Position numbers and translations under genes: made by a program
The notes under the pieces: model-generated
Database searches by the model: none
Told to the model about the DNA's origin: nothing
The model's input: only the letters and a program-made list of their open reading frames with translations
Source: Pontibacter sp. G13
GTDB lineage: Bacteria > Bacteroidota > Bacteroidia > J057
Assembly (NCBI RefSeq): GCF_031851795.1
Contig: NZ_CP134696.1
Coordinates: forward strand, 6,696,001-6,760,000
Length of the DNA stretch: 64,000 bases
Direction of reading: 5' to 3'
Shown: piece after piece, positions 1-28,532 of the stretch
Numbering within the stretch: position 1 is the first letter of the stretch
How the letters are laid out: the number at the start of each line of letters is the position of its first letter

Positions 1-2603
1 GAAGGGAAGGTCGGATTGATCATGCCGGGTTGAACCAGCGTATCCGTACATCCCAAATTGTCCGAAACCACCAAGGTGACATCGAAGCTTCCCGGTGTCT
101 GGTACGTGTGAGCGGGGTTCTGCGCATTCGAAGTGTTCCCATCTCCGAAATCCCATTGCCAACCCGTGATATTCGAAGTGGCCGGAACAGTCGTGGCCGT
201 GCTGGTAAATAAGACGCCAAGCGGTGCACAGCCATCGGTGGTATTCACAGTGAAGTCAGCGATCGGGCCTGTGATGTTGACGACGTTGTTGACGATCATG
301 GTGTCCAGACAGCCATCGGCATTTTGGACGATCAGGGTCACATCGAAATTCCCCGGGGTGGAGTAGAGGTGCGAAGGATTGGCTACGGTAGAAGTGTCTC
401 CATCTCCAAAGTCCCAAAAATAGGAGACCGCATTGGTGGAATTATTGGAGAAGTCAATCAGCTGTCCGGTACATCCATTGGGGGATGAAGCGGTGAAATT
501 GGCAACTGGTGGGAAGATGTTAATCGTCTGGGTTGCCGAGCTTGCACATCCCGTGGAATCATTGGTCACCACAAGGGTCACGTCATAGGTCCCGTTGGCG
601 GTGTAGGTATGGGAGGTGTTTTGGGTGGTGTCGGAATTGCCATCTCCAAAGTCCCAATACCACGTGTGCGGCATCAGGGAAGCATCGGTGAGGTTGACAT
701 TGAGCGGTACTTCGCATCCGGTAGTCGGAGTCATGAAAAAATCCGCAATCGGTCCCAATACCTGAATGTAGTCGGGCTTGACCAAGGTGTCGAGACAGCC
801 ATAATTCTCCACGATCAGGACGACATCAAAGGTACCGGTATCGCCATACTGGTGGGTGGGATTTTGAAGCTGCGAAAAGCCGCCATCTCCAAAGCTCCAT
901 TCCCAGTCGGTCCCGACATTGGACTGGTCGAGGAAGGACACCGGGTCTTCGGCACAGACAATAACTGGATTGGCTGCGAACTGAACCGTAGCTGGAACCC
1001 CAGCTTCGATGAATTGATAGACCGCTGTATCTCTACAGCCAGTGGCCGTCTGGACGATCAGTTGAGACTCAAACAGTCCCACTGCGTTGTAGACATGATT
1101 GGGAGATTGAATGAAGGAAGAACCGCCATCTCCAAAATCCCAGATCCAGTTTGTGATGGAGTCATTGGGGGAAACCGACAGGTCAAGGAAATCTACCGAC
1201 AATGGAATACACCCAGCCACCGAATCTGGCACAAATGCTGCGGTCGGCCTCACGATCTGGACATAATTGGGCTGGTTGAGGGTATCGGTACAGCCATTGG
1301 CATTTTCCACGATCAGCGTGATGCTGTAGAATCCCGGGGTCGTGTAGACATGTGAGGGATTGGAAACGTTGGCCGTTGTGCCATCCCCAAAATCCCAAGT
1401 CCAAGCGACCACATTGCTGGAAGTGTCCGTGAAATTGACGACAAAAGGAACCTCGCAACCCAATGGATCGGAGCTCATGAATTGGGCGCTCGGGCTTTCC
1501 CCAACTGTCATGAACGCCGATTGAACCAAGGTGTCCTGACAACCTGCTGAGTTCGTGGTGATCAAGGTGACGTCGTAGCTGCCGGGAGTCTGGTAGACAT
1601 GCTGAGGCATCGGCCCCGAGTAGGTCGTTCCATCTCCATAATCCCAAAAGAAGGTCGCGCCACCTATCGAATTGTTGATGAATGTGACGGTCTCACCTAC
1701 ACATGCGGAATTGCTCGGAACGCTGAAGGCAGCTACCGGAGGATCGAGCTGGATCGCATTGGGCGCGATGATGGTGTCTGCACAACCGCCCGGATCAGAA
1801 ATGATCAGGGAAACCGTATAGATGCCCGCTGCGGTGTAGGTGTGACCGGGGTTGGGTTGGGTGGAGGTGCCGCCATCTCCAAAGTCCCATTCGTAGCCAT
1901 AGGTTCCCGCTGGAGTCACCGAAGAGGTGAAATTGACCGAGTAGGGAATCTGACAGGACTGTGGCGAGCTCCAGGCGATAGACCCATTGGGCGCTTGGGT
2001 CGTGGTGACCAAGTCGTTTTGGATGAAACTGTTGGAGCAGCCGTTGGTGTCCGTCACGACCAAGGTGATGTCGAACGAGCCGGGAAACTGGTAGGTATGG
2101 GTAGGATTGGGATCGTTGGAGACATTTCCATCTCCGAAATCCCAGAGGTATGAGTCGATCGGAGCATCGCCGATCGTGGTATTGTCGCTGAAAGTCACGG
2201 TCAAAGGCGCGCAGCCGGAAGTCTGGTTGACCGTGAAGTCCGGCTGGGGATCTGCGAAAACCGTGATGTAGTTGGTCTGTACCAATGTGTCGCTGGTATT
2301 GCCGTCTGAGACAATCAGCGTGACCGTGTAGGTCCCCGGATTGATGTAGATCACCCCGGGATTGGCTAGGTTGGAGGTGTTGCCGTTGCCGAAATTCCAG
2401 AGGAAGGTCGTAGCGCCACCGGTGGATTGTTGGGCAAATTGTACCGTCAGTGGGCTACAACCCTCGACAGTATTTGCGGTAAAGCCTGCGGTAACCTGTG
2501 CATGCGCCACCTGGGAAGCGCTGATTCCAAACAAGAGCAAGAGCAGGGAAACTGTATGCACAAGGTATGCAGAGCGACGGAAGCTAGGGAAGGTTCCTCG
2601 CAT
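1..2603 (-). CDS. Giant PKD-repeat surface protein, N-terminal 867 codons (cut by window start)
   Basis: The reading frame opens with ATG at 2603 and runs without a stop to the window edge, so the C-terminus is missing. The first ~36 residues form a signal peptide (basic start, Leu-rich core, cleavage after AHA). At least ten PKD domains follow at a period of about 85 residues. Each has the W-D-F-G-D-G core (variants WNFGNG, WDYGDG, WSFGDG) and a Tyr-x-x-Pro-Gly strand, and most have a Cys pair around G-C-x-D-T. PKD domains are Ig-like beta-sandwiches used as spacers or adhesion modules in secreted proteins. By analogy with the neighbouring cargo genes a T9SS sorting domain is expected at the missing end, but it is not visible. 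No catalytic domain is seen in the visible part, so a stalk or adhesin role is inference. The gene is monocistronic in view, reading away from the protease pair. Confidence 0.93.
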   Translation of the reverse strand, partial: MRGTFPSFRRSAYLVHTVSLLLLLFGISASQVAHAQVTAGFTANTVEGCSPLTVQFAQQSTGGATTFLWNFGNGNTSNLANPGVIYINPGTYTVTLIVSDGNTSDTLVQTNYITVFADPQPDFTVNQTSGCAPLTVTFSDNTTIGDAPIDSYLWDFGDGNVSNDPNPTHTYQFPGSFDITLVVTDTNGCSNSFIQNDLVTTTQAPNGSIAWSSPQSCQIPYSVNFTSSVTPAGTYGYEWDFGDGGTSTQPNPGHTYTAAGIYTVSLIISDPGGCADTIIAPNAIQLDPPVAAFSVPSNSACVGETVTFINNSIGGATFFWDYGDGTTYSGPMPQHVYQTPGSYDVTLITTNSAGCQDTLVQSAFMTVGESPSAQFMSSDPLGCEVPFVVNFTDTSSNVVAWTWDFGDGTTANVSNPSHVYTTPGFYSITLIVENANGCTDTLNQPNYVQIVRPTAAFVPDSVAGCIPLSVDFLDLSVSPNDSITNWIWDFGDGGSSFIQSPNHVYNAVGLFESQLIVQTATGCRDTAVYQFIEAGVPATVQFAANPVIVCAEDPVSFLDQSNVGTDWEWSFGDGGFSQLQNPTHQYGDTGTFDVVLIVENYGCLDTLVKPDYIQVLGPIADFFMTPTTGCEVPLNVNLTDASLMPHTWYWDFGDGNSDTTQNTSHTYTANGTYDVTLVVTNDSTGCASSATQTINIFPPVANFTASSPNGCTGQLIDFSNNSTNAVSYFWDFGDGDTSTVANPSHLYSTPGNFDVTLIVQNADGCLDTMIVNNVVNITGPIADFTVNTTDGCAPLGVLFTSTATTVPATSNITGWQWDFGDGNTSNAQNPAHTYQTPGSFDVTLVVSDNLGCTDTLVQPGMINPTFP

Positions 2604-3048
2604 AAGGACTGGTAATCAAATGTGAATTAATACCCCAAAATTCACGCCGGGGATGGCGTGTAAGAACAGACCTCAAGTTGGTACATTCTGGCCTTTCAAA
2701 CAAAATCTCCCTTGTTAAGAACATGTAATATTCTGGGGTTCGGACTGGGGGAAATGTCGTAACGAGAGGTTGGTGATAGCGCGGGTGAATGGTTTTGTGG
2801 AAGGGGAGATTGGTGGAAATCGTGGATTGAATGGGTTGAGGGCTGATTGTCAGGGAAAAGAACTTGCGTCAAAAAAAGGCTTCGTGGAACGGCTGGGAAA
2901 ATGATTCGGGAATTCTGATTGATTGCGAAGTGAAAGGTCTTGACCTAATCTGTCAGAAATTGCATGTGTTGGACTTTTCGGTGGTTCGCAAATGGGAAAG
3001 TACCGTTTGATGCGTTCCGAAATCTCCTAAAACTTGGCCTCTGGAAAA
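2604..3048. other. Intergenic region upstream of the PKD gene
   Basis: This gene-free stretch precedes the PKD gene (minus strand) and the terminator side of the protease gene. A loose -7-like CACATTTG lies on the minus strand about 20 bases upstream of the PKD start, without a well-spaced TTG. I see no conserved ORF, RNA or repeat until the duplicated unit begins at about 3049. Confidence 0.4.
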
Positions 3049-3284
3049 GAGGTCCAGTTGATGTGCGGATGGCTCGTGGGGGGTGAGGCACCTGGAGGAG
3101 TAGTCGGGAGAATCGGGGTTAGTCTGTCAGCGGCACCGAATCTGATAGGGGATTGTCCGGTTGAAATCCATCGCTCTTTTTCTCCCGACCGAGTGGCAGC
3201 GAGTCCGGAAGACGCCGACGTGGCGACCTTCATGATTGGCAAAGATCCTGATGCCCCGCACGCCACGGCACCCCCAAAACACCC

Positions 3285-3319
3285 AAGCCGGAATGATCAT
3301 GCTTAGACCATCCCGGCTT
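3285..3319 (-). terminator. Intrinsic-terminator-like hairpin after protease copy 1
   Basis: AAGCCGG pairs with CCGGCTT, extended inward by a second partly mismatched stem around a 7-base loop. It lies about 20 bases after the stop codon of the minus-strand gene. The following T-run is short, so its strength is uncertain. The same hairpin is present after copy 2. Confidence 0.6.
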
Positions 3320-3338
3320 GTCGTGCGAGTCAACTAGG

Positions 3339-6300
3339 CTACTCTTTCAGGACTCGGATGATGCCTTGCTGCTGGCCGATCTGGATGCGGAATAGATAGA
3401 TTCCTTGGGCCAAGTGCCCCATCGGAATATCCACCATCGTCTCGCCCGCCTGAATTCGGTGCGCGGAGACCTGTCTGCCCGACAAATCCAACCCCACAAT
3501 CTGACCGTCCGCCTCGAATCCATTTCCGGCGCTCAGGGAGACATGATCCTGTGCGGGATTGGGGAAGAGCCGGATGTCTTGGGCGAATGTGTTCAGGAAG
3601 GTGCCTTTGCATCGGGTGATTTCGATGGAATCGCGCGCGACGCAACCGGTCGGCCCCAGCACTTCGACCCAGTAGGTGCCCGGGCCAGTGATCCATTGTT
3701 GGGGAGCGGAGGACCCATTTTGCCAGTAGTAGGACGAGAAGCCTGTTCCAGCTTCCAACAGGATCGAGTCTCCGGTGCAAATCGTCGTGTCGCTTCCAAG
3801 TGAAACCATCAGGGAGTTGTCGAGGTCCACGACGATGGTATCGGTGGCAGTTTGATTGCAGGCATCTTTGACGGTCACCCAGTAGGTGCCCGGTTGCCAG
3901 ATGGTGATGCTGGAATCGTTGGCCGAAGTAGACCAGTCATATCCGGAGAATCCACTTCCTGCGTGGATGGTGAGGATCTGGCCATCGCAAACCGTCGTAT
4001 CGGGCCCGAGATCCACCGTGGGCGATTGGGTGATTTCGTTCACGATGACGGTATCGGACATCACGCAGCCATTGGCGTGGACGACCTCTACCCAGAAGGT
4101 ATCGGGTTGCGAGACGGTCAAGGTAGGCGTGGTCGCTCCATTGCTCCAGAGATAGGAGACGAAAGCGCTTCCGGGAGCCAATACCACCGAACCTCCGTTG
4201 GGGCAGAGCATTTTGTCGGCTCCAAACGAAGGCGGCTCGATTCCCAGCACCTCAATCTGCATGGTGTCGCGAGCCTCTCCACAGGTGCCCTTGGCGTAGC
4301 CGATCAAGGTATGGGTACCGATTTGGGTCCAATCGATCCAGATGCCGGATTCATCCTCGCTGGTGATGGTGCCGCCCGACCCCAAGGTCCAGGTGACGGA
4401 ATCCGCGCAGGAGAACTTGTCCATGAAATAATGGGCAGGTTGTGGCGTGCAGAGCTTTTGTTTGCCGTGGATGGAGGTTGTCGGCGTGGAGGCAAAATCC
4501 GCCATGAAGGAGGGAAGTCCAAGAGATGCGTCTGAATTCAGGTTCTGGGCATTGTACTGGAATCCGCAAGCGACCCCGGGAGAATTGGGGCTGGAGATCA
4601 CGGACAAACGGGACTTGGTCCACATGGCACAGTAGATTTTTCCATTGGGGGCCACCTGCAACCCAGAATAATAATCCGAGAATGGCGTGATCTTGACGAG
4701 AGAGTTTAGGATGTCCGTTTCGGTTCCGGCCTCTGTATCCATCTGGACGATATATTTGAGCGATCCAAAAGGCTTTGAGACATAGATATATCTTCCGTTT
4801 GGAGAGAATTCCAATCCGTAGATTCCGCGGCCCCAGCCTGCACTCAGCAAATCAATCGTCTTGGGGTTGAAGACGAGACCGGTGGATTTGTCGAAATCCA
4901 GTATCTCGACAATGCTTGTATCCTGAATCACCAGCGCTACCTTGGAACCATCGGCAGAAAACTTCATCTGCCCCTGCCCATTGACCACTTTGGGTTGATT
5001 GGGCGACGCAAATCCTCCGATATGGGTTGTTCCTACCGAACTGATCACAGGAACCGTATCGACTCCTTGAGGCGTCACCCGATAGGCGTAGAAATCCTTC
5101 GATTCGAATTCATGGGTCAATACCCAGACATCGCATCCATTGGCATGCCGGACGGCACACATTTTTTCGGTTGCCCATGTGTAGAGCAATTTATTTTTCT
5201 GGACGACATCTCCGCCCAGCACGGTTGCTCCCGGAACTCGTAGGTCGATGGTCGAATAGGATAAGCCCTTGCTACCAGGCCCAAATACAAATCCATTGAT
5301 TTCGTCGAGTGAAAATAGGTAGTAGACACTATCCTCGTCCGGCTTGGGGATAAACATGGAGGATTGGGTGGAGGAACGGGCAAATCCACCCTGAATACTA
5401 TCGCCATTAGGCATGGCTACGCTGGCGCCCATCCCTGAAATAGTCGTACTCTCTAGCCCTCTCTGGACCTTGATACCATTGGTCGCGAGTACGAGGTACC
5501 CATCAGAGTTGCAGATCGTAGCTCCGCCTTCCGAATATCCACCCAATGAGGTGCTGAGCGGCGTAGGAGGATCTGTATGAAAGCTCAGGCCGTTGTAGTT
5601 GAATCCAAAATTCCAGATCATGGCGCGCATCCGGCCACAATCACCCACCGGAACATAGGTGCAGACGGTGTCTTGGCAGGTTCCTGAATTGGTTACCAGA
5701 CAGATCTCATTCCCTCCGAAGTCCGAAAAGACATGACTGAGGGTATCTCCGGTCCCCGCTGGAAGTCCGTCCACCAGCCATTGGTAGCTCAGGGAGCCGG
5801 GGGTGTTTTGGATGAATGTCACGGTATCTCCCGGCTGTACCTCTGTGAGGTCTTGGGTGAATGAAGCTTGCATCGGACACATGACCTGAACGGATCTGGT
5901 CAAGGAATCGAGGCAGTTGGGATTGCTGTTCATGGCCACCATCTTGAGGAAATGCAGGCCCGTGGTGGGGGGCGTGTAGCTGATGTTCTGTCCGGAAGAG
6001 ATCAGGTTTCCATCCCAAAACCAATTCCAGCTCGTAGCTCCGGAACTCAGATTGACAGGGGCGATGGGGGTTCCCAGCTGAATGGTGTCGGGGACCGAGA
6101 CGAAATTGGCCGTGATGGGATTGGGGCACGGCGTCAAGCAACCGAGGGAGGAGAGCAGGCTCGTGCGATTTTGCTGGAGTTGTAGACTCATCCGGTCTAC
6201 CTGCCCTTGGCTGAATGCCGTCTGACAGGTGAGCGGGCTGTAGTCCATGTAGTTGATGTGCATGTCCGGCTGATCGCCCAATCCTCCGAATGCGACCGGG

Positions 6301-7130
6301 CGAAATGGGTTGTTGGCGGAAGTGTCGTCCTCGTCCGTCTGGCAGGTGTTGGGGGAGGCGCTACATGCAGAATGTGCTGTGGTCGCATCGGGCGGGGTAT
6401 CGCAGACCCGGTCGCCGTCGAGTTGGCAGTCGTTGTTGACACAGCCTCCTTCGAACGTATGGTAAAGCCCGAGATAGTGTCCCGCCTCATGGATGGTGAC
6501 CACGGATTGGCTGGGCGATGAGCCAAAGAAATCCGCTTCCATAACGATACCGTCAATCGCGGAACCATGCGCCAGGGGCAAGGTCGCGTATCCGACTACG
6601 CCCGGACCGGAAGATTGCGAATGGATAGATGCCACGATCCAGATGTTGAGGTAGTCCAGGGAACTCCAATAGCTCAGGGCTTTGAGTTGGGTGTCTTGGG
6701 TTTCCTTGACCATGTCCGTGAGGGGATCTTGCACCCGCAGGATTCCGGTGGTGACTTGGCCTTGGGGATCGCGCTGGGCCAGGCAGAACTGGATGTCTGA
6801 AGGCGCTCCGGTGGTGGGATCATAGGGCCCGACATTCTGGAACGCTTCATTGAGATGGTCCAGGGCTGTGAAGACTTGTGAATTCGGGATGTTTTCGGCG
6901 CCATTTTGGTGAATGATGTGGACCACCACGGGAATGGTCATCGTGCCTGATCGAGTGAAGCTGGATTGGGAAATCCGCTGATCCATACGTCGCAATCGCT
7001 GTTGCTGAGAGGCGGGCAGTTGGTCGATGCTGGGGGTTCCACAGGTAGGAATGGGCGATTGTTGGGAAAATGCCCCATTGCCTCCAAGGAATAGGATCCC
7101 CAGGAGGAAAAGCCGATAAAGGAAATTCAT
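3339..7130 (-). CDS. M43-family metalloprotease with PKD, beta-propeller-like and T9SS type A domains (copy 1)
   Basis: 1263 residues. A signal peptide (1-22) is followed by a zinc metalloprotease domain with the motif HEAGHYLGLYH at 214-224 and a Met-turn NYMDYS at 293-298. Together these identify the M43 (pappalysin/cytophagalysin) metzincin family, secreted proteases that cleave extracellular proteins. Two PKD/Ig-like segments follow (about 335-500). A region of roughly 360 residues (about 500-860) has repeated strand patterns and phrases such as G-x-x-G-L-E-F-S-P-N-G-R, typical of lactonase/WD-like propellers. Several Ig-like repeats come next, with C-x-x-G-x-x-V-x-L and Y-x-W-S-x-G patterns, and then a C-terminal T9SS type A sorting domain (F-P-N-P at ~1185 to the end). 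The protein is thus predicted to be exported by T9SS and anchored or released at the surface. It is a tandem paralogue of 7599-11390, with identical length and near-identical ends. Confidence 0.93.
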   Translation of the reverse strand: MNFLYRLFLLGILFLGGNGAFSQQSPIPTCGTPSIDQLPASQQQRLRRMDQRISQSSFTRSGTMTIPVVVHIIHQNGAENIPNSQVFTALDHLNEAFQNVGPYDPTTGAPSDIQFCLAQRDPQGQVTTGILRVQDPLTDMVKETQDTQLKALSYWSSLDYLNIWIVASIHSQSSGPGVVGYATLPLAHGSAIDGIVMEADFFGSSPSQSVVTIHEAGHYLGLYHTFEGGCVNNDCQLDGDRVCDTPPDATTAHSACSASPNTCQTDEDDTSANNPFRPVAFGGLGDQPDMHINYMDYSPLTCQTAFSQGQVDRMSLQLQQNRTSLLSSLGCLTPCPNPITANFVSVPDTIQLGTPIAPVNLSSGATSWNWFWDGNLISSGQNISYTPPTTGLHFLKMVAMNSNPNCLDSLTRSVQVMCPMQASFTQDLTEVQPGDTVTFIQNTPGSLSYQWLVDGLPAGTGDTLSHVFSDFGGNEICLVTNSGTCQDTVCTYVPVGDCGRMRAMIWNFGFNYNGLSFHTDPPTPLSTSLGGYSEGGATICNSDGYLVLATNGIKVQRGLESTTISGMGASVAMPNGDSIQGGFARSSTQSSMFIPKPDEDSVYYLFSLDEINGFVFGPGSKGLSYSTIDLRVPGATVLGGDVVQKNKLLYTWATEKMCAVRHANGCDVWVLTHEFESKDFYAYRVTPQGVDTVPVISSVGTTHIGGFASPNQPKVVNGQGQMKFSADGSKVALVIQDTSIVEILDFDKSTGLVFNPKTIDLLSAGWGRGIYGLEFSPNGRYIYVSKPFGSLKYIVQMDTEAGTETDILNSLVKITPFSDYYSGLQVAPNGKIYCAMWTKSRLSVISSPNSPGVACGFQYNAQNLNSDASLGLPSFMADFASTPTTSIHGKQKLCTPQPAHYFMDKFSCADSVTWTLGSGGTITSEDESGIWIDWTQIGTHTLIGYAKGTCGEARDTMQIEVLGIEPPSFGADKMLCPNGGSVVLAPGSAFVSYLWSNGATTPTLTVSQPDTFWVEVVHANGCVMSDTVIVNEITQSPTVDLGPDTTVCDGQILTIHAGSGFSGYDWSTSANDSSITIWQPGTYWVTVKDACNQTATDTIVVDLDNSLMVSLGSDTTICTGDSILLEAGTGFSSYYWQNGSSAPQQWITGPGTYWVEVLGPTGCVARDSIEITRCKGTFLNTFAQDIRLFPNPAQDHVSLSAGNGFEADGQIVGLDLSGRQVSAHRIQAGETMVDIPMGHLAQGIYLFRIQIGQQQGIIRVLKE

Positions 7131-7544
7131 GAAAAAGGTAAATCTAGGTTGATAGGAATCTACGAATCAGTGGTTGTGTTACGGATTGAATATTACGAAA
7201 TATATTTCAATTTTTGACAAATTCTGCAATTGCACTTTTAATCTGCTGTAGATATATCCCGTATGTACAAACTATTCAAATTCCGTCATGGTTGGCCATC
7301 GGAATTGAGGTCCAGTTGACGTGCGGATGGCTCGTGGGGGGTGAGGCACCTGGAGGAGTAGTCGGGGGAATCGGGTTAAGTCTGTCAGCGGCACCGAATC
7401 TGATAGGGGGACTGTCCGGTTGAAGTCCATCGCTCTTTTTCTCCCGACCGAGTGGCAGCGAGTCCGGAAGACGCCGACGTGGCGACCTTCATGATTCGTA
7501 AAGATCCTGATGCCCCGCACGCCGCGGCACCCCCAAAAACACCC

Positions 7545-7579
7545 AAGCCGGAATGATCATGCTTAGACCATCCCGGCTT
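7545..7579 (-). terminator. Intrinsic-terminator-like hairpin after protease copy 2
   Basis: Same AAGCCGG/CCGGCTT hairpin as at 3285-3319, about 20 bases beyond the stop codon of the minus-strand gene. It suggests each protease copy is its own transcription unit. Confidence 0.6.
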
Positions 7580-7598
7580 GTCGTGCGAGTCAACTAGG

Positions 7599-10500
7599 CT
7601 ACTCTTTCAGGACTCGGATGATGCCTTGCTGCTGGCCGATCTGGATGCGGAATAGATAGATTCCTTGGGCCAAGTGCCCCATCGGAATATCCACCATCGT
7701 CTCTCCCGCCTGAATTCGGTGCGCGGAGACCTGTCTGCCCGACAAATCCAACCCCACAATCTGACCGTCCGCCTCGAATCCATTTCCGGCGCTCAGGGAG
7801 ACATGATCCTGTGCGGGATTGGGGAAGAGCCGGATGTCTTGGGCGAATGTGTTCAGGAAAGTGCCTTTGCATCGGGTCACCTCAATGGAATCCCGCGCGA
7901 CGCAACCGGTCGGCCCCAGCACTTCGACCCAGTAGGTGCCCGGGCCAGTGATCCATTGTTGGGGAGCGGAGGACCCATTTTGCCAGTAGTAGGACGCGAA
8001 GCCACTCCCCGCTTCCAACAGGATCGAGTCTCCGGAGCAAATCGTCGTGTCGCTTCCAAGTGAAACCATCAGGGAGTTGTCGAGGCCTACGACGATGGTA
8101 TCCGTGGCAGTTTGATTGCAGGCATCTTTGACGGTCACCCAGTAGGTGCCCGGTTGCCAGATGGTGATGCTGGAATCGTTGGCCGAAGTAGACCAGTCAT
8201 ATCCGGAGAATCCACTTCCTGCGTGGATGGTGAGGATCTGGCCGTCGCAAACCGTCGTATCGGGCCCAAGATCCACCGTGGGCGATTGGGTGATTTCGTT
8301 CACGATGACGGTATCGGACATCACGCAGCCATTGGCGTGGACGACCTCTACCCAGAAGGTATCGGGTTGCGAGACAGTCAAGGTAGGCGTGGTCGCTCCA
8401 TTACTCCAGAGATAGGAGACAAAAGTGCCTCCGGGAGCCAAGACCACCGAACCCCCGTTGGGGCAGAGCATTTTGTCGGCTCCAAACGAAGGCGGCTCGA
8501 TTCCCAGCACCTCAATCTGCATGGTGTCGCGCGCCTCTCCACAGGTGCCCTTTGCGTAGCCGATCAGGGTATGGGTACCGATTTGGGTCCAATCGATCCA
8601 GATGCCGGATTCATCCTCGCTGGTGATGGTGCCGCCCGACCCCAAGGTCCAGGTGACAGAGTCCGCGCAGGAGAACTTGTCCATGAAATAATGGGCAGGT
8701 TGTGGCGTGCAGAGCTTTTGTTTGCCGTGGATGGAGGTCGTCGGGGTGGAGGCAAAATCCGCCATGAAGGAGGGAAGTCCGGCCCCTGAGGGAGTATTGA
8801 GGGGTTGGGCATTGTACTGGAATCCGCATGCTAGACCGGGAGCATTGGGGTTGGAAATCACCGACAGATATGGTTGGGTCCACATGGCGCAGTAGATTTT
8901 TCCGTTGGGTGCTATCTGAAGCGCTTGATAGAAATCAGAAATGGGGGTGATTTGGACGATCGAGTTCAAGATATCAGTAGCTGTACCGGCTTCTGTGTCC
9001 ATCTGGATGATATATTTTTGTGTGCCAGTCGCCTTGGATGCATAGACGAACCGTCCATTTGGGGAAAACTCCAATCCGTAGACCCCACGTCCCCATCCCG
9101 CACTCCTCAAATCAATCGTCTTGGGGTTGGAGACGAGTCCGGTGGATTTGTCGAAATCTAGAATCTCCACGATCCCGGTATCCTGAATCGCCAAAGCGAC
9201 CTTCGAACCGTCGGGGGAAAACTTCATCTGCCCCTGCCCATTGAGCACTTTGGGGGAATTGGGGGCTGTAAATCCGCCGATATGGGTGGTCCCTACCGAA
9301 CTGATCACAGGAACCGTATCGACTCCTTGAGGCGTCACCCGATAGGCGTAGAAATCCTGAGATTCGAATTCATGGGTCAATACCCAGACATCGCATCCAT
9401 TGGCATGCCGTACAGCACACATTTTTTCGGTTGCCCATGTGTAGAGCAAGTGATTTTTCTGGACGACATCTCCGCCCAAAATGGCTGCTCCCGGAACTCG
9501 TAGGTCGATGGTCGAATAGGATAATCCCTTGCTTCCGGGGCCAAACAGGAACCCATTGATTTCATCGAGGGAAAAGAGGTAATAGACGCTGTCTTGTTCA
9601 GGTTTGGGAATGAATATGGAGGACTGGGTGGAGGAATGAAAAAATCCTCCTTGGATACTGTCGCCATTGGGCATCGCCACGCTGTATCCAAGTCCTCCTA
9701 CGCCCGTGTTTTCGAGGCCCCGACGAACCTCTCTGCCATTGGTCGTCAATACCAGATGTCCTGCAGGGTTGCAGATGGTTGCGCCGCCTTCATTGAATGC
9801 CCCGAGCGCAGATCCGGCCAATGTGGGAGGATCGGTGTGGAAGCTCAGTCCATTGGAGGTTGATCCAAAATTCCAGATCATGGCGCGCATCCGGCCACAG
9901 TCGCCCACCGGAACATAGGCACAGGCGGTGTCTTGGCAGGTTCCTGAATTGGTCACCAGACAGATATCATTCCCTCCAAAGTCCGAAAAGACATGACTGA
10001 GGGTATCTCCGGTCCCCGCTGGAAGTCCATCTACCAGCCATTGGTAACTCAGGGAACCGGGGGTGTTTTGGATGAAGGTCACGGTATCTCCCGGCTGTAC
10101 CTCTGTGAGGTCTTGGGTGAATGAAGCTTGCATCGGACACATGACCTGAATGGATTTGGTCAAGGAATCGAGGCAGTTGGGATTGCTGTTCATGGCCACC
10201 ATCTTGAGGAAATGCAGGCCCGTGGTGGGGGGCGTGTAGCTGATGTTCTGTCCGGAAGAGATCAGGTTTCCATCCCAAAACCAATTCCAGCTCGTAGCTC
10301 CGGAACTCAGATTGACAGGGGCGATGGGGGTTCCCAGCTGAATGGTGTCGGGGACCGAGACGAAATTGGCCGTGATGGGATTGGGGCACGGTGTCAAGCA
10401 ACCGAGGGAGGAGAGCAGGCTCGTGCGATTTTGCTGGAGTTGTAGACTCATCCGGTCTACCTGCCCTTGGCTGAATGCCGTCTGGCAGGTGAGCGGGCTG

Positions 10501-11390
10501 TAGTCCATGTAGTTGATGTGCATGTCCGGCTGATCGCCCAATCCTCCGAATGCGACCGGGCGAAATGGGTTGTTGGCGGAAGTGTCGTCCTCGTCCGTCT
10601 GGCAGGTGTTGGGAGAGGCGCTACATGCAGAATGTGCAGTAGTCGCATCGGGTGGGGTATCGCAGACCCGGTCGCCGTCGAGTTGGCAATCGTTGTTGAC
10701 ACAACCTCCTTCGAACGTATGGTAAAGCCCGAGATAGTGTCCCGCCTCATGTATGGTGACCACGGATTGGCTGGGCGACGAACCGAAGAAATCCGCTTCC
10801 ATGACGATACCGTCAATCGCGGAACCATGCGCCATAGGCAAGGTCGCGTATCCGACTACACCCGGACCGGAAGACTGCGAATGGATAGATGCGACGATCC
10901 AGATGTTGAGGTAGTCTAGGGAACTCCAATAGCTCAGCGCCTTGAGTTGGGTGTCTTGGGTTTCCTTGACCATGTCCGTGAGGGGATCTTGCACCCGCAG
11001 GATTCCGGTGGTGACTTGGCCTTGGGGATCGCGCTGGGCCAGGCAGAACTGGATGTCTGAAGGCGCTCCGGTGGTGGGATCATAGGGCCCGACATTCTGG
11101 AACGCTTCATTGAGATGGTCCAAGGCGGTGAAGACTTGTGAATTCGGGATGTTTTCGGCGCCATTTTGGTGAATGATGTGGACCACCACGGGAATGGTCA
11201 TTGTGCCTGATCGAGTGAAGCTGGATTGGGAAATCCGCTGATCCATACGTCGCAATCGCTGTTGCTGAGAGGCGGGCAGTTGGTCGATGCTGGGGGTTCC
11301 ACAGGTAGGAATGGGCGATTGTTGGGAAAATGCCCCATTGCCTCCAAGGAATAGGATCCCCAGGAGGAAAAGCCGATAAAGGAAATTCAT
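7599..11390 (-). CDS. M43-family metalloprotease with PKD, beta-propeller-like and T9SS type A domains (copy 2)
   Basis: 1263 residues, the same length as copy 1. Signal peptide, HEAGHYLGLYH (214-224), Met-turn NYMDYS (293-298), Ig-like repeats and the T9SS type A domain are all conserved. I see one substitution in the first ~400 residues (Leu to Met at 186) and only a handful in the last 400. By contrast the central propeller-like region (about 500-860) differs at many positions. Examples are FNYNG versus STSNG near the start of the module and NLNSDAS versus PLNTPSG near its end. The two copies are therefore both intact and probably both functional secreted proteases, with different central modules. 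The start codon context is identical to copy 1, but the sequence further upstream diverges, so expression may differ. Confidence 0.93.
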   Translation of the reverse strand: MNFLYRLFLLGILFLGGNGAFSQQSPIPTCGTPSIDQLPASQQQRLRRMDQRISQSSFTRSGTMTIPVVVHIIHQNGAENIPNSQVFTALDHLNEAFQNVGPYDPTTGAPSDIQFCLAQRDPQGQVTTGILRVQDPLTDMVKETQDTQLKALSYWSSLDYLNIWIVASIHSQSSGPGVVGYATLPMAHGSAIDGIVMEADFFGSSPSQSVVTIHEAGHYLGLYHTFEGGCVNNDCQLDGDRVCDTPPDATTAHSACSASPNTCQTDEDDTSANNPFRPVAFGGLGDQPDMHINYMDYSPLTCQTAFSQGQVDRMSLQLQQNRTSLLSSLGCLTPCPNPITANFVSVPDTIQLGTPIAPVNLSSGATSWNWFWDGNLISSGQNISYTPPTTGLHFLKMVAMNSNPNCLDSLTKSIQVMCPMQASFTQDLTEVQPGDTVTFIQNTPGSLSYQWLVDGLPAGTGDTLSHVFSDFGGNDICLVTNSGTCQDTACAYVPVGDCGRMRAMIWNFGSTSNGLSFHTDPPTLAGSALGAFNEGGATICNPAGHLVLTTNGREVRRGLENTGVGGLGYSVAMPNGDSIQGGFFHSSTQSSIFIPKPEQDSVYYLFSLDEINGFLFGPGSKGLSYSTIDLRVPGAAILGGDVVQKNHLLYTWATEKMCAVRHANGCDVWVLTHEFESQDFYAYRVTPQGVDTVPVISSVGTTHIGGFTAPNSPKVLNGQGQMKFSPDGSKVALAIQDTGIVEILDFDKSTGLVSNPKTIDLRSAGWGRGVYGLEFSPNGRFVYASKATGTQKYIIQMDTEAGTATDILNSIVQITPISDFYQALQIAPNGKIYCAMWTQPYLSVISNPNAPGLACGFQYNAQPLNTPSGAGLPSFMADFASTPTTSIHGKQKLCTPQPAHYFMDKFSCADSVTWTLGSGGTITSEDESGIWIDWTQIGTHTLIGYAKGTCGEARDTMQIEVLGIEPPSFGADKMLCPNGGSVVLAPGGTFVSYLWSNGATTPTLTVSQPDTFWVEVVHANGCVMSDTVIVNEITQSPTVDLGPDTTVCDGQILTIHAGSGFSGYDWSTSANDSSITIWQPGTYWVTVKDACNQTATDTIVVGLDNSLMVSLGSDTTICSGDSILLEAGSGFASYYWQNGSSAPQQWITGPGTYWVEVLGPTGCVARDSIEVTRCKGTFLNTFAQDIRLFPNPAQDHVSLSAGNGFEADGQIVGLDLSGRQVSAHRIQAGETMVDIPMGHLAQGIYLFRIQIGQQQGIIRVLKE

Positions 11391-11472
11391 GAAAAAGGTA
11401 AATCTAGGTTGATAGGAATACTGAAAAACACATTTAATCGAGAATTGAATATTACGAATTTTATTTCAAACT

Positions 11473-11774
11473 ATCATATAACTCCCGAAGTCATTCAGTT
11501 TTGATTTTGATACATAATAGTTTTTCGGATCAATGGGGCCGGGAGCGATGAACGATTAGGGGTGGAAAATGGAGGGTGTATAAGAGGCATGGTCTCCCAT
11601 AAATCCCCTGAATTGGGAATGCCCCCATTCACAGAATTTCCTTACATTTGAATACTGGGAATCTCTGTATGGAAAAGATTCGGGCAATTTGCCATCGTTT
11701 CTGTTTTTCTGAATATCGAAACCCTCGGATCTCTTTTCGCAGTGATAGTTCCCTAACCATTAAATACAGACAAC
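11473..11774. other. Intergenic region between divergent protease copy 2 and RDD gene
   Basis: AT-rich spacer that should hold the promoters for the minus-strand protease and the plus-strand RDD gene. TACATTTG at 11643-11650 fits the Bacteroidota -7 consensus TAnnTTTG on the plus strand, but the nearest TTG is 27 bases upstream rather than 19-21, so the call is weak. Nothing else was recognised. Confidence 0.35.
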
Positions 11775-12254
11775 ATGAACCCTACAGAACAAGACGGTTT
11801 AGACTTCGAGTCTCAATTGAGCATGGAGGACTTTCAGGCAGAGATGCTGGAACCTGCTTCGGCAGGTGTTCGATTCCTCAATTATATCATCGACAACTTC
11901 GTCGTGCAGGTGGTCAGTAGTTTTGCGATTCTTCCGATGATTATAGCCACCTCAAGCTTGGATGAGGAAATCGGTTTGGGTACTACGCTCCTTGCCACCT
12001 ATGGAAGCATTTTCGTCTACTATGCGGTATTGGAAGGACTGACTGGGCAGACTGTCGGCAAAATGCTGACTGGGACGGTAGTCATTGACGCTGAAACCTA
12101 CGAGAAGCCCACTTTCAGTCAGATCGCTGGCAGAACCCTTTCTCGTTGGGTGCCATTTGAGGCCTTCTCCTTCTTGGGGAGCGAGCCTACGGGATGGCAC
12201 GATACCTGGAGCAAGACGATGGTTGTGAAAAAGAAATCCTTGCTGAAACAGTAG
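11775..12254 (+). CDS. RDD-family membrane protein
   Basis: 159 residues. After an acidic N-terminus of ~30 residues comes A-G-V-R-F-L-N-Y-I-I-D-N, the position of the Arg/Asp-Asp signature of RDD proteins. Two hydrophobic membrane segments follow (about 38-60 and 68-88), then the family motif G-Q-T-V-G-K-M-L-T-G and a C-terminal R-x-L-x-R segment. RDD proteins are small inner-membrane proteins; some have been linked to Na+/H+ antiport, but most are uncharacterised. It stands alone between its own upstream spacer and a strong terminator. No partner gene suggests a substrate. Confidence 0.88.
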   Translation: MNPTEQDGLDFESQLSMEDFQAEMLEPASAGVRFLNYIIDNFVVQVVSSFAILPMIIATSSLDEEIGLGTTLLATYGSIFVYYAVLEGLTGQTVGKMLTGTVVIDAETYEKPTFSQIAGRTLSRWVPFEAFSFLGSEPTGWHDTWSKTMVVKKKSLLKQ

Positions 12255-17573: not shown

Positions 17574-17932
17574 TCTGATGTGCGGATGGCCTGCCGCGGC
17601 GTAAAGGATCGGAAGGGAGCGCCCCTAGGCGCTGTCCGAAAGGAAGGAAAAGTTGCATGGGATGATCGACAGTCGAGGCAAGTGATACATCCCATGCACT
17701 CAAATTGTGGAGGACGATGCCCCTGCAGAGCCTGACCCGCCGGCTCCTTTTGCCAAGCGGTACTTGGAGGCCAAGCCGGCGGGGTACGCCCAAATCATGA
17801 AAATCTACATAGGGTCTCAATATTGAAATATAAGCAAATGGGAATTGATCATGGAATTGAAATATGGTTCATCTATTTGATTTTTCGGAATTAGTCAGTT
17901 ATTTGATTTAGCTAATCCAAATAGCCATTACC
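17574..17932. other. Structured non-coding spacer with three hairpins and a dispersed-repeat remnant
   Basis: Three consecutive hairpins occur between the lipoprotein and LamG genes. AGCGCC-CCTA-GGCGCT lies at 17618-17633. GCATGGGATG pairs with CATCCCATGC at 17655-17697. CCCGCCGGCT pairs with AGCCGGCGGG at 17736-17783, with an inner CCAAG/CTTGG stem. The first ~60 bases (from TGATGTGCGGATGGC at about 17578) resemble the reverse complement of 28450-28510, so this is probably a decayed member of a genomic repeat family rather than a dedicated RNA. The last ~110 bases are AT-rich and should contain the promoter of the next gene. Confidence 0.5.
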
Positions 17933-28255: not shown

Positions 28256-28532
28256 GGGAAATCGCTTATGAGCGTGAAGATAAGCAATCTATCCAACGGA
28301 CCATGAGATTCTAGGGGAGGAGGGCGTATCCCGGCGAACGAGCCTAGCGGGTTCTGCTTGGGCATGCGAGTCGCCGGGTCGGGCCCTTGCGTGCTCGCTG
28401 ATCGCTCGGTCCACGATCTGGGGGCGATAGACCGCCGCCCCCAGATCGTGGACTCCGCCTAAGGGCGGCCACTTCAGACCCCTTACGCCGCCGCAGGCCA
28501 TCCGCACATGAACAATAAACCTGTCATCCCAT

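Follow-up and report, generated by a model that had tools for sequence, protein, structure and literature searches.

In the stretch of the Pontibacter sp. G13 genome analyzed here (64,000 nucleotides of contig NZ_CP134696.1, positions 6,696,001 to 6,760,000, hereafter the window), two open reading frames (ORFs) of 1263 amino acids apiece lie in tandem on the same strand, copy 1 at 3339–7130 (-) and copy 2 at 7599–11390 (-). We find that this pair, which we refer to as pair A, is a mosaic in which segments that are almost identical alternate sharply with segments whose silent sites are close to saturation. We suggest that the pair probably arose by an old tandem duplication, and that its two ends, together with an island in its middle, were later homogenized by segmental gene conversion, so that only the old blocks of a central β-propeller module were left as they were.

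Both copies have the same domain order: an M43 peptidase domain at residues 153–316 (Pfam PF05572, 59.8 bits against a cut-off of 23), a PKD-like stretch, a central module of ~375 residues, an Ig-like stretch, and at residues 1188–1255 a type A sorting tail of the type IX secretion system (T9SS), which is also the system that exports the gingipains. The tail scored 34.9 against a cut-off of 27 in Pfam and 35.2 against 23 with TIGR04183, whereas the PKD-like and Ig-like stretches stayed under their cut-offs, as did a match to TIGR03952, the metzincin lipoprotein equivalog (56.3 against 208.1). HEAGHYLGLYH, starting at residue 214, we take to be the HExxHxxGxxH motif of an M43 (pappalysin-like) peptidase. 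By these matches and this motif, both copies are predicted M43 (pappalysin-like) peptidases and cargo of the T9SS.

The extent of the central module, residues ~502–876, was taken from query residues 13–387 of its matches (E ≤ 1e-50), which were found in 28 of the 394 other genomes of the class; the open frames that carry it there range from 482 to 5773 residues. In the window it occupies 4503–5627 (-) in copy 1 and, at an offset of 4260, 8763–9887 (-) in copy 2. Compared with solved structures, a 35-row profile of the module matched a WD-40 repeat protein (8.9e-25, over six stretches), TolB (7.6e-8) and lactonase-like chains, which identifies the module as a predicted β-propeller; the matches fall in profile positions ~141–315 of 343, that is in the second half, and the first part has no support of its own. 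No Pfam family scored above its cut-off in the center of copy 1, and an AlphaFold model of the center built from three sequences was poor (predicted local distance difference test score 43.8).

The two copies differ at 305 nucleotides and 85 amino acids, with no insertion or deletion between them. A preliminary description of this DNA had placed the divergence between the proteases in the center of the protein, with almost unchanged ends and no change in length, and at the amino acid level this is what we observe: one difference in residues 1–400 (at residue 186), 5 in residues 401–509, 72 in residues 510–870 and 7 in residues 871–1263, with positions that agree to within tens of bases. At the DNA level the ends are not unchanged, as residues 1–400 and 880–1263 carry 23 and 24 synonymous changes, respectively. 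The divergence of the silent sites in the center, which is the key point, had no place in that description. Proportions of differing synonymous (pS) and nonsynonymous (pN) sites by the Nei-Gojobori method were 0.081 and 0.001 in residues 1–400, 0.746 and 0.158 in 510–625, 0.143 and 0.051 in 626–720, 0.609 and 0.131 in 721–870, and 0.087 and 0.009 in 880–1263.

We segmented the alignment using synonymous changes only, from the 1129 degenerate codons that encode the same amino acid in both copies, 156 of which are changed. By the Bayesian information criterion (BIC) the best model has five segments, residues 2–509, 513–622, 623–724, 725–864 and 865–1263 (BIC 783 against 914 for a flat profile), and its log-likelihood of -360.0 compares with -453.4 for the flat model and with -432.3 for the best of 100 shuffles fitted with five segments. 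The segmented pattern is thus far from chance. A flat identity profile and a center with synonymous changes only, either of which would have refuted the preliminary description by its own account, are not what the pair displays, the center having its 72 amino acid differences. The center is indeed diverged, as that description held, but it is not one block: two deep blocks flank an island of low divergence.

In copy 1 these segments correspond to a homogenized N-terminal segment (residues 1–509; 5604–7130 (-)) with 33 of 482 degenerate codons differing, a first old block (513–622; 5265–5594 (-)) with 47 of 82 (pS 0.75 over 510–625), the island inside the propeller (623–724; 4959–5264 (-)) with 7 of 90, a second old block (725–864; 4539–4958 (-)) with 46 of 107 (pS 0.61 over 721–870), and a homogenized C-terminal segment (865–1263 and the stop codon; 3339–4538 (-)) with 23 of 368. 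The same synonymous segmentation places them in copy 2, in the same order, at 9864–11390, 9525–9854, 9219–9524, 8799–9218 and 7599–8798, all on the minus strand. Towards the outside, the old blocks stop 11 and 12 residues short of the ends of the propeller module.

The center is older than its surroundings, not faster evolving, because its silent sites are near saturation as well and its ratio of nonsynonymous to synonymous substitution rates (dN/dS) is low. Across the two old blocks dN/dS is ~0.05 in one and ~0.11 in the other, rough values as dS is at or near saturation, and both blocks are under purifying selection. Diversifying selection on the head of a gene pair of uniform age could explain why the amino acid changes cluster there, and dN/dS is higher in places (0.33 in the island, 0.39 in residues 841–880), though still below 1. 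However, selection on the protein is unable to lift pS seven- to ninefold, the synonymous sites are near-saturated in the very blocks in question, and the differences sit in columns that are variable in the family (p ~1e-7). The synonymous profile leads us to reject this explanation, to which we attach practically no credence. The preliminary description also likened the pair to cassette-type surface diversification. This likeness is not supported: the blocks are under purifying selection and no segment of the center, the island included, has a dN/dS suggestive of positive selection; only two copies and no silent repertoire were found, as a DNA search of the genome with the center returned two matches, both of them pair A itself; and low divergence extends into the propeller, in the form of the island.

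The flanks of the two genes bear on how the mosaic arose. For ~305 bp past each stop codon the non-coding flanks (3034–3338 (-) for copy 1 and 7292–7598 (-) for copy 2) are 95% identical, and similarity then ends. On the other side, the 29 bp directly before the ATG (7131–7159 (-) in copy 1, 11391–11419 in copy 2) are identical, and beyond them only a weak, gapped homology is seen between 7160–7290 (-) and ~11420–11590, with a local score of 25.5 from -28 outwards. One of 2000 first-order Markov resamples scored as high, and the regions upstream of 201 other ORFs of the genome all scored lower (best 22.5), which supports, if less strongly than the pattern within the genes, that the upstream flank is homologous but old. 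Such old homology is what a converted tract ending at -29 inside an old duplication would leave behind. A young duplication with a swapped center would not leave an old upstream flank unless the duplication happened to start exactly at -29.

The alternative to conversion is that the tandem duplication was recent, and that the two propeller blocks of one copy were then replaced from a divergent allele or paralogue that was subsequently lost or that belongs to another strain or species. The same similar ends and deeply diverged blocks would be expected, two events would suffice, and in its favor, too, the ORFs that contain the module vary widely in length within the class. On the other hand, the assembly (GCF_031851795.1; 98.1% complete, 3 contigs) contains no donor. 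Searching it for a third copy of the propeller, as the preliminary description had proposed, gave at the DNA level the two copies themselves for the center, and pair A plus one 52-bp stretch for the whole gene; the next protein match to the center in the genome is 32% identical over part of it, and a scan of the genome contigs gave one distant locus only (29%). A third paralogue within the assembly is therefore rejected as donor. Among the matches listed, none to the center exceeded 41% identity in 12 other genomes of the family or 45% in the class sample, and the nearest long homologue is 38% identical over residues 32–1124.

Nor does either head stand out as the replaced one. At the 58 differing columns in which at least 20 of 33 relatives are aligned, the family majority residue is found in copy 1 at 7, in copy 2 at 9 and in neither at 42, so that the divergence from the 33 relatives appears symmetric. 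Codon usage is native-like in both heads, and foreign codon usage of one head is rejected by z scores of -1.45 to 0.53 for the old blocks. A low third-position GC content of the center is, moreover, common to both copies. The preliminary description had offered gene conversion of the ends and replacement of the center from another paralogue as equal options, and we favor the former, as the upstream flank is homologous but old and no third donor was found; replacement in the form outlined above we consider unlikely.

We propose that the starting point would have been an old tandem duplication of a gene for a T9SS-exported M43 metalloprotease, and that homologous recombination between the copies (inter-locus gene conversion, presumably RecA-dependent) would then have overwritten a 5′ tract from about -29 to codon ~509, a tract inside the propeller (codons 623–724), and a 3′ tract from codon ~865 to ~305 bp past the stop codon. 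The two blocks left over, which make up most of the β-propeller, would have retained their original deep divergence under purifying selection, and the outcome would be a shared frame for export and catalysis that carries two propeller heads, both constrained and long separated from each other. Selection, and not sequence heterology alone, may be what keeps the heads apart. The synonymous changes in residues 1–480 are unevenly spread (dispersion p 0.022, longest run p 0.024), a pattern that several conversion events would leave.

Several points weigh against this proposal. The C-terminal end lacks such unevenness (p 0.37 and 0.53), and splitting the N-terminal segment is not favored by BIC. At least three converted tracts are needed, against the two replaced blocks of the alternative, and the upstream homology is modest, with a score that one resample equaled. 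Among the matches listed, no center is more than 45% identical, too distant for a tree that would date the duplication. Finally, the mosaic is known from assembled sequence alone, and a 4.2-kb tandem repeat is a setting in which assembly or polishing could homogenize near-identical copies artificially. Such an artefact seems very improbable to us, as the homogenized parts still differ at scattered silent sites and a similar pattern is found in an unlinked gene pair on different contigs.

This second pair, pair B, was met in the first search of the genome, ahead of the survey described below. Its two genes, of 1166 amino acids each, lie at C2:13592–17092 (L073:3593–7093 (-)) and at C1:7488772–7492272 (L074:3773–7273 (-)), C1 being the chromosome, and encode a propeller-like head similar to the module of pair A, an Ig/PKD stalk and, at the end, a CHU_C (type B) sorting tail. 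Scanned 50 codons at a time, the two proteins are 30–66% identical up to residue ~576, the heads themselves 30–54%, with pS 0.55–0.87; a single window at the step has 78% identity, and from ~627 to the stop codon identity is 88–98% with pS 0.09–0.23; after the stop codon the best local match is 19 bp. A large gene lies upstream of each copy, the two being 39% identical, and the heads and the upstream gene are synonymously saturated. Both pair A and pair B thus display the mark of segmental gene conversion, sharply bounded stretches of low and of high synonymous divergence between two paralogues. In the genome, DNA of the stalk is confined to these two loci. The upstream genes have a corrected-count third-position GC of 0.75 (C1) and 0.50 (C2), and both stalks one of 0.73–0.74; that both stalks are GC-rich although the C2 upstream gene is at 0.50 suggests that a C1-like copy was the source of the stalk now in the C2 gene. 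Judged from this profile, pair B appears to be a direct instance of the overwriting of a tail.

Each pair B gene and its upstream neighbor form an operon-like unit of two genes (L073:3593–9689 on C2, which is 43 kb, and L074:3773–9768 on the chromosome), with the stalk homogenized. Third-position GC of the chromosomal unit is 0.72–0.75, and its corrected excess is 0.185 and 0.222 against a largest value of 0.104 in 80 other ORFs; this unit may have been acquired horizontally.

We surveyed 86 ORFs of at least 300 amino acids from the window and 22 further stretches of the genome, namely the pair B loci and 20 stretches chosen by eye for neighboring sorting tails or matching lengths, with tail positions from the best 150 of 294 candidates in a first list. 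Pairs whose best high-scoring segment pair reached at least 300 bits were counted as paralogues, and any 50-codon window with pS ≤ 0.30 as young. Only two of the 31 paralogue pairs, pair A and pair B, contain a young window. Next comes L141, with a lowest window pS of 0.34: its two ORFs (L141:60–1928 and L141:2128–5187) share six middle windows with 78–94% amino acid identity and pS 0.34–0.80, while the N-terminal windows are 18–36% identical, and we regard it as a third candidate, for an older partial homogenization. The tandem pairs L129 (960 and 960 amino acids; 68–96% amino acid identity, pS 0.45–0.90 in every window) and L131 (60–86%, pS 0.50–0.80) have about the protein similarity of the pair A center and are deeply diverged from end to end. 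Deep divergence is thus ordinary among the surveyed paralogues, so it is the young ends of pair A, not its old center, that need explaining. The T9SS cargo of this genome is very large, with at least 150 Por_Secre_tail matches (best 150 of 294 candidates) and 31 CHU_C matches over the cut-off, and many of the surveyed cargo genes are tandem, similar-length, synonymously saturated paralogues.

Corrected for amino acids, third-position GC in both copies of pair A exceeds expectation by 0.13 to 0.17 in residues 61–480 and 880–1263 and by 0 to 0.08 in the center; the largest excess in 117 background segments of 380 codons is 0.122. The difference between propeller and rest is -0.125 and -0.117 in the two copies; in 24 relatives, about ten further ones having been left out, it averages -0.002 (standard deviation 0.042, lowest -0.093). 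One could extend this to the idea that homogenization of the shafts of T9SS surface proteins recurs in this genome, reaching up to domain boundaries and sparing the propeller heads, and that the exchange is GC-biased. Most homogenized segments do have an excess of 0.13–0.20 that the unconverted heads lack (both copies of pair A and the C2 copy of pair B), which is no more than suggestive of GC-biased conversion. By BIC, however, pair A has no segmentation in third-position GC, and homogenization without raised GC is seen in the island and in codons 1–60. The C1 operon of pair B is GC-rich throughout, including the unconverted upstream gene, so transfer in one direction, into C2 from a C1-like source, accounts for the GC content of pair B. 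We therefore hold the extended idea to be doubtful; if it were true, GC-biased gene conversion would have left its footprint within single genes of a bacterium.

The GC-rich 3′ flank of pair A is not evidence in this matter because it contains a dispersed GC-rich element. This element, of ~213 nt and several helices, lies in both flanks, at 3062–3277 (-) for copy 1 (182.4 bits) and 7320–7536 (-) for copy 2 (177.4 bits), and both copies were used in building the covariance model R1. Across 18 element copies, these two included, 16 of 30 consensus pairs have compensatory double changes. The internal loop is variable in length and sequence, but in the two pair A flanks it is 93% alike, which argues that the element is part of the shared unit and was not inserted twice. 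The window contains further copies at 17579–17793 (-) and 28320–28508 (+). The model finds at least 150 copies in the genome (best 150 of 1317 candidates), and the 9 copies in a sample of 20 spaced 10-kb stretches, of which 19 came from the chromosome and one from C3, extrapolate to roughly some hundreds; the lengths of 149 copies cluster near 165, 187, 213 and 236 nt. Rfam gave no match at its gathering thresholds in window positions 2500–12000, and in nine element stretches a tRNA beside one copy and otherwise weak sub-threshold matches. Among 12 further genomes of the family a single one has matches, 22 in number; in a class sample, searched with stricter filters, 7 of 294 other genomes gave weak matches. 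A non-autonomous mobile element and a 3′-end processing or termination element are candidate identities. Twelve of the 149 C1 copies, two of them in the shared unit of the window, lie downstream of a T9SS sorting tail (178 considered) at a distance of at most 600 bp, whereas 2000 random placements gave a mean of 2.05 and a maximum of 7; as these were not restricted to intergenic DNA, the association may reflect gene-end spacing only.

Segmental concerted evolution of paralogous outer-membrane proteins has been described for babA/babB and homA/homB of Helicobacter pylori (PMC2795765; PMC4552749). Pair A resembles these in that segments of surface-protein paralogues are homogenized within a strain by gene conversion while the middle behaves differently. 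In homA/homB, however, the nonsynonymous rate (Ka) of the middle is raised and the synonymous rate (Ks) is not, whereas the middle of pair A is near saturation at synonymous sites. The proteins and the phylum differ too, and pair A is known from one genome. Domain-confined conversion is also reported for the release factors RF1 and RF2 of Bacteroidia and Chloroflexi, where conversion between ancient paralogues is limited to the domain of shared function and the specificity domain stays distinct (PMC4530459). Those are housekeeping factors with conversion demonstrated by phylogeny, unlike the surface proteins of pair A (PMC4530459). In Porphyromonas gingivalis, the modules of surface proteases vary by exchange, as described for gingipain/HagA (PMC5266723), which likewise makes them proteases with modules varied by recombination. 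The mosaicism there is allelic, across strains, and involves both catalytic and adhesin domains (PMC5266723), while in the single genome studied here the catalytic and sorting parts are uniform and the propeller differs.

In conclusion, pair A is most likely a clean new instance of segmental gene conversion between paralogues, a process that is already known. The amino acids alone would suggest a hypervariable module, whereas the silent sites reveal a module that is simply of greater age than the sequence around it; dating such a gene as a whole, or calculating a whole-gene dN/dS (0.16 for pair A), averages parts of very different age. If it is selection that stops conversion at the edges of the module, such pairs, in which the parts for export and catalysis undergo concerted evolution, would offer a natural way of testing why paralogous recognition heads remain distinct.

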